DNA of 50,005 bases from Clostridiales bacterium. Its GTDB lineage: Bacteria > Bacillota > Clostridia > Caldicoprobacterales > DTU083. The DNA lies in NCBI GenBank assembly GCA_012838915.1, contig DUOI01000004.1:1-50005 (forward strand). The letters are read 5' to 3'. Position 1 is the first letter of the stretch. Each line of letters starts with the position of its first letter. Below the pieces are notes generated by a model. The model ran no database searches and had not been told where the DNA came from. It was given only the letters and a program-made list of their open reading frames with translations. The position numbers and the translations under genes are program-made. Shown in pieces: positions 22,308 through 27,051 of the stretch.

Positions 22308-22394
22308 TACAATTTCCTGACAATATTCAGGGTACTTTTTCCCATCAGTCACATATATTAGTATGGATAAGTTTATGCGCTAATGGCATGGGTT

Positions 22395-22401
22395 TTCGAC
22401 A
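22395..22401 (+). promoter_or_regulatory. 0A box (Spo0A site) upstream of hypothetical gene
   Basis: Perfect inverse heptamer TTCGACA, 36 bases before the predicted TTG start at 22437. A sequence CATATATTA at 22352-22360 fits the sigma-K -10 pattern CATAnnnTA, but its -35 is not convincing. Confidence 0.45.
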
Positions 22402-22436
22402 TCGGAAACCATAAAACGGGAAAGGAGAGGGTTTCG

Positions 22437-23738
22437 TTGTTAAGAAATCGTCAGTTCCATCGATCTTTTATCATATTAAAGAATCAGGACAGCGGATACA
22501 GCCTGCGTGACGGTAAAGAGCCTGCCGGGTATGTTAAATTGGAAATCAGAAAAAACAACGGGAAAATGCAGCTTTACATACAGGATATGAAGCCGGCAAA
22601 GCCCCAAAAGGCCATATATGATGTTGTCCTGGTTTCAAATATGGAAGAGGTGGAACCGGTCAAGCTTACCAGTATTCAGGTGCCGGACAGCGGAAGGGGA
22701 GAATATGAGATTACCTTTGATCCGGCTGATGTAGCAGAAACCGGACACGGCATCGGGGATTATCATGCATTGGCAGTGGTGGAAAGACCGTTAAACAAGA
22801 GCGGTGTTCTTCATTATCCCCTGGTGGGTTATTCGGACAAGAGGGTTGTACTGGATTGGTCCAAAGAGGTAACCGACCGATTGGCACATATGTATAGGGC
22901 ATCCCGGGGCAATATGATGGGGGGATTGTACTCGCTGGATGGAGAAGCAAATCAGCATTTGGAAGAAGGTGCAGGTTCGGACACATTGCCAAGGCAAATT
23001 CCGGATACAGAAGCCGCTGTGTTCCAGGAAGGGGTAACAGGTGATGATGAATTTTCGGAAGAACAGCAAAATGACGTGGCAGGTGACAATAATGAGCGCT
23101 ATCAGGATAAGGAGGAAGGAGTAATTGAAGGAAACCGGACTGATAATACGGAAGATCAGATTAATCCGGAAATACTGAATTTCATCCCGCCGGATATCAG
23201 TTACATTTACCGGAATAAAGTTAGCAAGAACGGTGAAGAAACCAATTTTCCTCAAACGGAAGGTTTGCCCGACAAATCAGCTGCTATGCAGGAGGATACG
23301 GATATGGATGCAGCACCTCGGGATTTCTACAGCATGCAATTGGGAAGTACTCCTTATTGGAGCAAGGTGGAGGAATATTATTACAGGCTGTTCGACAATC
23401 ATAAAAGGGTAACGCCCTTTGATGATGCAATCGGTGAGGTGGACTGGATCAGGGTGGAAAACAGAAATGAGCCTGTTTATCCGCAGCACGGCGTGTATGA
23501 TCACTGCTATCCATACCGTAATAATGGCGGCGGTTTGGATCACTATCTGATAGGGTTAATGCGAAATCGAGGAAAAGTGCAATATGTTATATACGGGGTA
23601 CCGGGTATCTACAGTGCAGCCCCCCCCATGTCCATGCATGGATTTTCTCGGTGGCTGCCTGTCAAAAATGGATATGGAGCGGGCTACTGGCTTTTATATA
23701 TCGACGCAGTTACCGGAAATATTGCATATCCCTATTGA
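22437..23738 (+). CDS. Conserved hypothetical protein, two domains with acidic linker
   Basis: Protein of 433 aa that I do not recognise as a characterised family. The N-terminal part (about 1-150) is beta-rich (RSFIILKNQDSGYSLRDG, GYVKLEIRKNNGKMQLYIQD, YDVVLVSN) and resembles a carbohydrate- or coat-protein-like sandwich. Residues about 180-290 are a low-complexity acidic linker. The C-terminus (about 300-433) is rich in Tyr, Trp and Gly (YGVPGIYSAAPPMSMHGFSRW, here in parts) and starts with YYYRLFDNHKRVTPF. No signal peptide or membrane helix is visible. AAAGGAGAGG at 22421-22430 selects TTG 22437; ATG 22383 lacks an SD. Its place before spo0A with an upstream 0A box suggests a sporulation role. 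Confidence 0.7.
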   Translation: MLRNRQFHRSFIILKNQDSGYSLRDGKEPAGYVKLEIRKNNGKMQLYIQDMKPAKPQKAIYDVVLVSNMEEVEPVKLTSIQVPDSGRGEYEITFDPADVAETGHGIGDYHALAVVERPLNKSGVLHYPLVGYSDKRVVLDWSKEVTDRLAHMYRASRGNMMGGLYSLDGEANQHLEEGAGSDTLPRQIPDTEAAVFQEGVTGDDEFSEEQQNDVAGDNNERYQDKEEGVIEGNRTDNTEDQINPEILNFIPPDISYIYRNKVSKNGEETNFPQTEGLPDKSAAMQEDTDMDAAPRDFYSMQLGSTPYWSKVEEYYYRLFDNHKRVTPFDDAIGEVDWIRVENRNEPVYPQHGVYDHCYPYRNNGGGLDHYLIGLMRNRGKVQYVIYGVPGIYSAAPPMSMHGFSRWLPVKNGYGAGYWLLYIDAVTGNIAYPY

Positions 23739-23913: not shown

Positions 23914-24693
23914 ATGACCGGTAAGACAACAGTAGTAATTATTGATGACAATCCCCATATACGGGAAATCATATCTTCCCTGATCTCTATGGAAGATGAT
24001 ATGCAGGTTGCAGGCGCAACCGGCGACGGACGCAGGGGGCTGGAACTGATTCAGGCCGTCAAGCCTGATGTTGTATTGCTGGATATGATTATGCCGTATA
24101 TGGACGGTTTGGGCGTATTGGAATATCTTAATCGAAACAATCAGGAGCACCAGCCTTCTGTAATCTGCCTGTCCGCTGTAGGGCAGGAAGAATTAATACG
24201 AAAAGCAATTGATCTGGGAGCTAAATACTACATGGTCAAGCCCTTCGATTTTGAAATGATTCTCAACCGAATTCGCGAATTGTCCGGTGCCTCTACTTTA
24301 ACAGGCCAGAAGAGTGTGGCATCTTCGGCTAAGAATACAGAGAGAAACCTGGAGGAAAGAATTACAAATATATTTCTGACTATAGGCATTCCGGCCCATA
24401 TCAAGGGCTATCATTTCCTGCGGGAAGCCATTAAAATGGTTGTACAGGACAATGATATTATCAACCGCATAACCAAAGAGCTGTATCCCAGCATTGCCAA
24501 GAAGTTCAACACCACGCCCAGTAAAGTGGAAAGGGCGATCCGGCATTCCATAGACGTGGCATGGAGCCGCGGCAAGGTGGAAAATATCAATCAACTCTTT
24601 GGCTATGTTGTTTACGATAAAAATGATAAGCCCACCAACGGGGAGTTTATTGCGCTGGTAGCCGACAAGCTTTCCATGGAACGTATCGCCTAG
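23914..24693 (+). CDS. spo0A: Sporulation master regulator Spo0A
   Basis: Response regulator of 259 aa that starts sporulation when phosphorylated. Receiver domain 1-125 with acidic pair D11/D12, phosphoacceptor D57 in [13 protein letters not shown], switch Ser86 (CLSAVG) and K109 (YYMVKPFDF). A linker (about 125-147) leads to the Spo0A_C DNA-binding domain (about 150-259) with the nearly invariant recognition region [29 protein letters not shown] at 23900-23906. In B. subtilis spo0A follows spoIVB; here it follows a hypothetical gene instead. Upstream 0A box at 23827. Confidence 0.98.
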
Positions 24694-24738: not shown

Positions 24739-24958
24739 ATAACTTTAATATCATATCTTTATTACTAATCATATTTTGAATACTTCTTCCCTGCCGAATG
24801 CGGCATCATTCCATTTCCACCGTGATAACCATATGCAGTATCGGTATATGTTACCCCATTATCAATTCCATATCAAATCATTCGAAGGGCTTCATCCGTT
24901 TTTTCTTTTTCATTGTTAATATTGCCATCCGAGTTCTTCAAAAATCTCAGGAAGTAAC

Positions 24959-25092
24959 TTGTCCATGTACAGGTTTTAACATGGTTGTGGACAAGGTCAG
25001 GTTTTTCCACACAAACGGAATCCATATATTTCAATGGCTTGGGGATAAACATGTGGAATTTGTGGATAAGTTCAGGACAATCATGTGGATAA
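24959..25092 (+). promoter_or_regulatory. DnaA-box cluster
   Basis: Two perfect DnaA boxes, TGTGGATAA (inverse of TTATCCACA), at 25061-25069 and 25084-25092. Three single-mismatch boxes: TGTGGACAA (24986-24994), TTTTCCACA (25003-25011, opposite orientation) and TGGGGATAA (25040-25048). A weaker TTGTCCATG lies at 24959-24967. Four of the five strong boxes point the same way. No dnaA or dnaN is nearby. Confidence 0.7.
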
Positions 25093-25167
25093 CAGGCTGT
25101 TACCCGTAAGTTGATATTACACAGAATATCTTTTGCCTGCATACAATGTAGGGAGGAGGTGACGGTC

Positions 25168-26550
25168 TTGATCACATTCAGTGAAACCGGATGGCATGGT
25201 GTAATCAGTGATGAAATCGGATTTGAAACCATCAGCATTGTTGCCCAGGCTGTTGCGGACTGCCTCAATGATGAGTTCCCATCGGATCCGGTGGTATTGG
25301 CATACGATACCCGTTTTCTTTCCAGAGAATATGCATGGTCCATACAACGGGTGCTGACCGCCAACCGAATCAAGGTATTTATGCATAAAAAGCCTGTACC
25401 TACTTCCTTTCTGAGTATGTCGGTTTCTTCATGTAATGCTGCTCTGGGGATAATGGTAACCGGTGAAGGCCGTCCCGCAAGATATTCCGGGTTGATATTC
25501 CGGTTTCCCTCCGGCTGTCCGGTATCCGGGGAATGGATGGACAGGTTGTTTCACTATCTATACAGAAGATATCCAAGAAGTTCGGAAGACAGCAGGCATT
25601 TACTCCAATATATCGATTACTTCTCCGAGTATGCGGCTGAGCTGGCAAAAAACGTGGATGTAGAAAGTATTCGCAAAGCAAATCCTTATATAACCAGTGA
25701 CAGTTTTTTTGGAAGTGTAGGTACTTATATGCAGGATCTGATGAAATTCATGGGATTGGAAGGAATTCATATCCGTACCAAGCCCAACCCCGGTTTTATG
25801 GATTGTGTTCCCCAGCCAAATGAGAGGAATATGTCTCCGGTATCCAGGCTGACGGTACAAAAGAATGGCGATATCGGATTATTCTTCAATGGGGATGGCA
25901 GTGTTATGGGAGCGGTATCCCCTCAGGGGCAGATTATTCGAAATGAATGGGCTATGGCTGTTATTTTGGACGAATGGCTGCAATTCAAGGGAAAGGATTT
26001 TGATTTTTATACTGAGATTTTCACACCGGAGCTGGCCCACCTGCTGCTCAAACATCACGGATTGGAGGCATTACCCCTGCATAAGCTGAAAGAGCGGAAC
26101 AGACCATTGGACAAGGCTGTCATTTGGGACAGAAAAGGTCTGCGTTTCGGGAGTTTTTTACCGGACTGGGATGCCATATTTCAGGGTACGCTGCTATTGC
26201 AGGCACTTTGCAGATATGATTTGAATTGGCAGCGGTTTTCAAAACATATGGAAGTCCTGACGGCAAAAAAAATTCAAGAACAAAAATTAATTAACATAGA
26301 TGTTGATCTCTGGGAGGAAAAGAAAAAAAGCCTATTGGAAAGGGTGGAGGAAATAACCCCGGCGGGGCTGGACCAAGTCATAGAGCAGGGCCGGGAAATA
26401 AAGCTGGTGCTTCAGGACGCCGGCTGGCTGGGCTTTCATTATAATGAATGCGAGAAAAACCTGTTCTTGTATTATGATGCTGAACTTGGACAATATGCTG
26501 AAAATTTGCTTGTCCAACTCATTGGCTGGCTGACAGCAGAAGACTTGTAA
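25168..26550 (+). CDS. Degenerate phosphoglucomutase/phosphomannomutase homologue, probably non-catalytic
   Basis: Protein of 460 aa with the alpha-D-phosphohexomutase fold: N-terminal TGWHGVISDEIGFETI and LAYDTRFLSREYA align with normal enzymes. The catalytic loop, normally TASHNP, reads VTGEGRP, so the phosphoserine position is Glu100. The metal loop DGDxDR is NGDGSV (241-246), keeping one Asp of three. The sugar loop GGExSGH is replaced by WDRKGLRFG (320-328). All key motifs are lost while the fold is kept, so a regulatory or binding role is likely rather than catalysis. GGGAGGAGGTGA at 25151-25162 selects TTG 25168. It directly follows the DnaA-box cluster. Confidence 0.8.
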   Translation: MITFSETGWHGVISDEIGFETISIVAQAVADCLNDEFPSDPVVLAYDTRFLSREYAWSIQRVLTANRIKVFMHKKPVPTSFLSMSVSSCNAALGIMVTGEGRPARYSGLIFRFPSGCPVSGEWMDRLFHYLYRRYPRSSEDSRHLLQYIDYFSEYAAELAKNVDVESIRKANPYITSDSFFGSVGTYMQDLMKFMGLEGIHIRTKPNPGFMDCVPQPNERNMSPVSRLTVQKNGDIGLFFNGDGSVMGAVSPQGQIIRNEWAMAVILDEWLQFKGKDFDFYTEIFTPELAHLLLKHHGLEALPLHKLKERNRPLDKAVIWDRKGLRFGSFLPDWDAIFQGTLLLQALCRYDLNWQRFSKHMEVLTAKKIQEQKLINIDVDLWEEKKKSLLERVEEITPAGLDQVIEQGREIKLVLQDAGWLGFHYNECEKNLFLYYDAELGQYAENLLVQLIGWLTAEDL

Positions 26551-26609: not shown

Positions 26610-26697
26610 CATATGGTTTTATTTTATTGAATTGGGTATATAATAGCTATTAAAAATCCGGTCATAAAATGTAGCATTATATGTGGAGGGATCATAT

Positions 26698-27051
26698 ATG
26701 GCTTATAAAAAATGTCCGCGTTGCAGCCTCAATTATATCATAAGTACCGATATACTCTGCAGGATTTGTCTTGAAGAGGTTGGCAATGCCTTACGGAGCA
26801 ATGACGAGGAGGAGGAATATGATTTTTGCCCGGAATGCGGAGAAAATATAATAAAGGCCGGGGAAGAAATGTGTTACCAATGCATGATAGAGCAAAACAA
26901 AGAAGAAGCTGATTTAGAAAGTAACAAGGATGATGACTGGGACAAAATACAAAACCATGATACGGATGATGAGCTTTATGGCGAAGACGAGGAGGAATCT
27001 GAAGAATTAACGGTGGTGGATCTGGACGAGGAAACCGAGGAAGAAGAATAA
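26698..27051 (+). CDS. Small twin zinc-ribbon protein with acidic tail, function unknown
   Basis: Protein of 117 aa. Eight cysteines form two CxxC...CxxC ribbons: C6/C9 with C21/C24 and C44/C47 with C59/C62. Residues from about 66 to the end are mostly Glu and Asp. Such a layout suggests a metal-binding adaptor that contacts basic partners, but no family function is known to me. GGAGGG at 26685-26690 selects ATG 26698. It sits between the degenerate phosphohexomutase gene and veg, with a 0A box upstream. Confidence 0.8.
   Translation: MAYKKCPRCSLNYIISTDILCRICLEEVGNALRSNDEEEEYDFCPECGENIIKAGEEMCYQCMIEQNKEEADLESNKDDDWDKIQNHDTDDELYGEDEEESEELTVVDLDEETEEEE

Follow-up and report, generated by a model that had tools for sequence, protein, structure and literature searches.

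The window analysed here, the whole 50,005-nucleotide stretch from a Clostridiales bacterium, contains a forward-strand open reading frame of 460 codons (25168-26550, TTG start) that is free of frameshifts and stops and encodes a phosphohexomutase-like protein, hereafter pseudo-PGM. A ribosome-binding site, AGGGAGGAGGTG (25150-25161, +), precedes the start codon, and the purine-rich stretch at this place is conserved in all orthologues. Further upstream lies a putative promoter, TTACAC-N19-TACAAT (25117-25147, +), which is a consensus match only, with TTACAC and GCATA[CA]AAT largely conserved in the family. The gene is part of a conserved order, metG-tatD-3D-ksgA-u451-spo0A-pseudoPGM-zinc ribbon-SPOCS-ispE-NTP transferase-spoIIR-cell wall hydrolase-ypeB-murI. 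Its upstream neighbour encodes a second Spo0A, Spo0A2 (23914-24693, +; TIGR02875, 338 bits), and the next gene downstream is zinc-ribbon-like (26683-27051, +), as judged from weak zinc-ribbon matches and synteny. Between ksgA and spo0A2, a 451-amino-acid open reading frame (22383-23738) is conserved across the order and gave no match in Pfam or NCBIfam.

Domains I and II of phosphohexomutases were detected above the Pfam cut-offs (PF02878, 63.6 bits; PF02879, 34.4 bits), and none of the NCBIfam equivalogues GlmM, PgmG and pgm exceeded its curated cut-off, the best reaching 87.8 bits versus 439 for TIGR03990. Sequence matches in the PDB were phosphomannomutases, phosphoglucomutases and GlmM, the best ones being prokaryotic PMM/PGM proteins. 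An AlphaFold2 model built from 11 orthologues adopts a full-length PGM fold (pLDDT 83.0, pTM 0.83), with pLDDT below 50 at the N terminus, at residues 101-104 in loop 1 and at residues 208-212. The best structural match, 1tuo, covers the whole length (Z 34.0, 407 residues, 2.9 Å). The claim of a first-pass annotation that all 460 residues align with this fold, with no stop or frameshift, is borne out by the open frame, and the structural comparison with phosphoglucomutases that it proposed agrees. By descent and by its predicted four-domain, heart-shaped fold, pseudo-PGM is a member of the alpha-D-phosphohexomutase superfamily. Canonical PMM/PGM enzymes (1tuo of Thermus thermophilus, 1wqa of Pyrococcus and 9du5 of Thermococcus) have the same fold over the whole length at ~19% identity, and share with it a GxR-type motif, YDTRF, and many structural glycines. 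Pseudo-PGM departs from these enzymes in each of the four active-site loops and in the acid/base residues, all of which are replaced.

Orthologues were recovered with an alignment query, whereas a single-protein query of the contigs had given no match. They are present in 11 of 13 genomes of the family, which consists of uncultured spore-forming bacteria (both genomes of genus g8 lack the gene), on contigs that include those of Clostridiales bacterium DTU083, UBA3906 and UBA5454, and are 44-73% identical. Searches of 30 genomes from the order and 391 from the class revealed no other close homologue, E-values falling from 1e-214 to 2e-51. The first-pass annotation had held that orthologues with intact motifs would expose a sequencing or annotation error; we found none, and the 11 orthologues share the same active-site replacements. 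The next matches, outside the family, are ~21-28% identical and resemble ordinary mutases. In a pattern search most of them show all four motifs, the misses being partial rows (L053), divergent rows (L042, L044, L045, L048 and L049) and long PGMs, which were missed because the third-loop pattern did not fit them. In the phylogenetic tree the family members group in a single clade with 100/100 support, whose stem, at 2.75 changes per site, is the longest; given the long-branch warning raised for this tree, the placement of the clade among canonical mutases is unsure.

An alignment of the orthologues with 17 canonical relatives places the loop equivalents at residues 97-108 (loop 1), 239-246 (loop 2), 317-336 (loop 3) and 418-430 (loop 4), and in 11 of 11 orthologues all four canonical active-site loops are gone. 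The phosphorylated, catalytic Ser of TASHNP is replaced by Glu in ten orthologues and by Gln in one, and the His and Asn of this loop are likewise lost. The metal-binding DGDxDR has become [NS]GDGSx, which retains one of three metal Asp residues and has lost the Arg; in the sugar-specificity loop GGExSG, the GGE is deleted in the alignment and the Ser replaced; and the phosphate-binding RxSGTEP keeps its Glu alone. This comparison reproduces the changes read earlier from the single sequence (TASHNP to TGEGRP, DGDxDR to NGDGSV, and GGExSG deleted or replaced) and adds three that had gone unnoticed: RxSGTEP, here HYNECEK; the loop-0 Arg of GTGGWR, which is His, Phe or Tyr at position 10; and the Lys of GFK, here Leu307. 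We take this Arg and Lys to match the catalytic acid and base of PGM1 and PGM5. Canonical positions that are retained include F4, G8, W9, D47, R49, T98, Y106, G108, D243, W420 and E429.

A phosphohexomutase still working through an unusual active site would fit the full-length predicted fold with all four domains, but we consider this very improbable: every orthologue lacks at once the phosphorylated Ser, two metal Asp residues, the acid/base residues and the phosphate loop, and a canonical PGM (C59), matching TASHNP, DPDxDR and RPSGTEP, is encoded elsewhere in the genome. Judged from these residues, pseudo-PGM almost certainly has no mutase activity.

Loss of every catalytic motif, together with a weakly conserved domain 4 (7 of 94 columns invariant) and the absence of the gene from g8, is also what a decaying pseudogene might look like. 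Pairwise dN/dS values, however, lie at about 0.08-0.17, pointing to purifying selection, with most of the underlying dS values high; in the sole pair with modest dS (L037/L041), dN/dS is 0.12 compared with 0.23 for ispE, and selection on pseudo-PGM is similar to or stronger than that on ispE. The same replacements recur in metagenome-assembled genomes of several projects, stops are absent, and the start and ribosome-binding site are conserved. We ruled out a pseudogene or a sequencing error on the strength of the 11 concordant orthologues, the dN/dS values and the conserved start and ribosome-binding site, and regard decay, or an error of sequencing or annotation, as extremely improbable. The sequences indicate one origin, vertical inheritance and purifying selection.

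The replacements are also not randomly distributed. In loops 1 and 2, 13 of 20 columns do not vary within the family, as against 112 of 460 overall (hypergeometric p ~1e-4). Because these two loops exceed the remainder in conservation, and decay should favour no particular loop, the pattern in the aligned sequences looks like repurposing. One form of repurposing would be a cleft rebuilt for another reaction, with which the strong conservation of the altered loop 1 (TG[EQ]xRPA) and loop 2 (FxGDGS) is consistent. We nevertheless think a new enzyme improbable: neither a candidate nucleophile nor a metal triad is conserved without exception, the single carboxylate in loop 1 gives way to Gln in one genus, and the Arg and Lys proposed as acid and base have been lost.

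Another form would be a ligand sensor: a sugar phosphate, or some other small phosphorylated molecule, would occupy the rebuilt cleft, where Glu100 would take the place of phosphoserine, and pseudo-PGM would convey the metabolic state to a partner protein. In keeping with such a role, conservation among the replaced loops is highest in loops 1 and 2, and a precedent exists in PGM5 (aciculin), a conserved inactive animal phosphoglucomutase of the same superfamily that still binds glucose 1-phosphate (PMC7761743). Herring PGM5 (6y8x) is among the structural matches of our model (Z 30.8). PGM5, a structural muscle protein of animals, differs in that its loops are largely intact: it retains the active-site Ser and still binds substrate, and a catalytic acid and base have been named for it as for PGM1 (PMC7761743), whereas pseudo-PGM is without the sugar and phosphate loops. 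By sequence, pseudo-PGM is not a PGM5-like relative of PGM1 and is best described as having arisen independently, in bacteria. The idea of the first-pass annotation that the Glu mimics phosphoserine is weakened by genus g7 (L012), in which Glu100 is Gln. With GGExSG and RxSGTEP both lost, classical sugar-phosphate sensing is unlikely, and as two of three metal Asp residues are missing as well, we rate a ligand sensor of any kind as unlikely, if less so than a new enzyme.

For action by protein contact, this fold offers precedents. GlmM, an active enzyme with the phosphohexomutase fold, inhibits the c-di-AMP cyclase CdaA by contact through domain 2 (PMC8573169), and the inactive PGM5 is a further example (PMC7761743). 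Of the earlier suggestion of a sensor or scaffold rather than an enzyme, the non-enzyme part holds up (the loops are gone in 11 of 11 orthologues under purifying selection), an ordinary sugar-phosphate sensor is weakened, and a scaffold would fit. We give slightly more credence than doubt to pseudo-PGM being a catalytically dead phosphohexomutase that one clostridial family has put to new use as a regulator or scaffold without catalysis. Counting against a regulator, the gene is dispensable for the family, as its absence from g8 indicates.

The neighbouring Spo0A2 is ~55% identical to the other Spo0A of the genome (G000:C35:47157-47942), and its recognition helix reads TTPSKVER rather than TTPSRVER, with Lys for Arg. 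Genes with Spo0A_C were found in 30 of 30 genomes of the order, with at least two in all except G001, G007 and G009, and three families of the order carry Spo0A2 without the mutase-like gene. Clostridium thermocellum also has a second Spo0A, 56% identical to its first (PMC4890492). The link to spo0A drawn in the first-pass annotation therefore stands as adjacency, and the gene order around pseudo-PGM is conserved in the family, but the neighbour is not the only spo0A of the genome; it is an order-wide paralogue that also occurs where pseudo-PGM is absent.

Five putative DnaA boxes lie 84-182 bases upstream of the pseudo-PGM start codon. Two have one mismatch (TTGTCCACA, 24986-24994, -; TTTTCCACA, 25003-25011, +); a DnaA-like box, TTATCCCCA (25040-25048, -), opens a triplet at 12- and 9-base steps (25040, 25052 and 25061); and two are exact copies of TTATCCACA, at 25061-25069 (-) and, closest to the gene, at 25084-25092 (-). 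The sequence GGGGATAA at the triplet is nearly invariant across the order. The window as a whole contains 32 matches to the DnaA box with at most one mismatch, against 14.6 expected, and no shuffle reached that number. Box order and spacing are identical in 9 of 10 family loci examined, so that the DnaA cluster first seen in one sequence proves real and conserved, and stronger than that sequence could reveal. A 103-codon open reading frame across this region (24798-25109) was rejected as a gene, since relatives match only intergenic fragments, mostly over the box cluster. We also rejected the cluster as oriC: GC skew is positive across the entire window, with no switch at the cluster; dnaA is accompanied by a separate set of clustered boxes; and g8 is without the spo0A2 cluster.

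The order's three other families, which have no mutase-like gene, also keep the cluster (for example, L140 10160-10288 and L143 6255-6454). In UBA5454, an insertion of ~5.3 kb separates spo0A from the cluster, and cluster and gene remain together. In genus g6 (L036 308-369), the mutase-like gene starts 62 bases after spo0A2 and the box cluster is absent, so the link between gene and cluster is not strict. In g8, the zinc-ribbon gene follows spo0A2 directly, with neither boxes nor mutase-like gene between. The phylogeny of Spo0A2, the SPOCS protein and IspE nests g8 within the family, with supports of 97 and 99, so gene and cluster were most simply lost together there. As the cluster is older than the gene, their link is possibly positional only; the gene may have fallen under a DnaA site already in place, or may simply adjoin one.

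Other Clostridia, too, carry box triplets with 9- and 12-base steps, in their case next to tsaD (gcp), which was recognised from sequence without a family search; tandem TGTGGATAA triplets adjoin tsaD in many Clostridia (L199, L204, L206, L209, L210, L217, L218, L221, L223, L226 and L227) and match the DnaA-binding region at gcp of B. subtilis. In that species, ATP-DnaA binds with high affinity to the gcp (tsaD) and sda regions, which are among the tightest DnaA sites (PMC4447404). By its tandem 9- and 12-base-step boxes and conserved position, the putative cluster is of the gcp type, although, unlike the gcp and sda clusters, it sits between spo0A2 and the next gene. Spo0A2, in place of DnaA, might bind these boxes, given that TGTGGA resembles the Spo0A box TGTCGAA, but the occurrence of the same triplet at tsaD favours DnaA. 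In boxes of the spo0A2 clusters, bases 1 and 3 vary and base 5 is C, whereas in the dnaA cluster (L084 7344-7709) base 5 varies most; this difference may reflect another affinity class or another binding protein.

Returning to the repurposed, non-catalytic protein, we can outline how it might work. DnaA at the cluster would control transcription of pseudo-PGM, a proposal that follows from the placement of the boxes ahead of the putative -35 element of the promoter-like TTACAC...TACAAT; we find the case for a transcriptional response to DnaA evenly balanced. Pseudo-PGM would then bind a partner through its conserved domains 1-2 and the cleft rebuilt from loops 1 and 2, a mode of action we consider on balance probable. 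From the position of the gene we tentatively guess that the partner belongs to the circuit of Spo0A2, of sporulation or of replication. More specifically, cluster-bound DnaA could alter transcription of the gene, and pseudo-PGM could bind Spo0A2 or its kinase, tuning Spo0A2 as a checkpoint on replication status. In B. subtilis, DnaA activates sda and thereby restrains Spo0A (PMC4447404); pseudo-PGM, unrelated to Sda in sequence, would do Sda's job by other means. We view this checkpoint as a long shot.

We found no report of a bacterial phosphohexomutase pseudoenzyme in the open-access papers searched. Pseudo-PGM appears to be one, with every loop replaced and the gene under selection, for which PGM5 is a precedent, though far less altered. 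Annotation based on Pfam would label the gene a phosphoglucomutase, and metabolic models of these Clostridia would then include a spurious step. Its position beside a second Spo0A and an ancient DnaA-box cluster offers a handle on a possible coupling of replication and sporulation in Clostridia.
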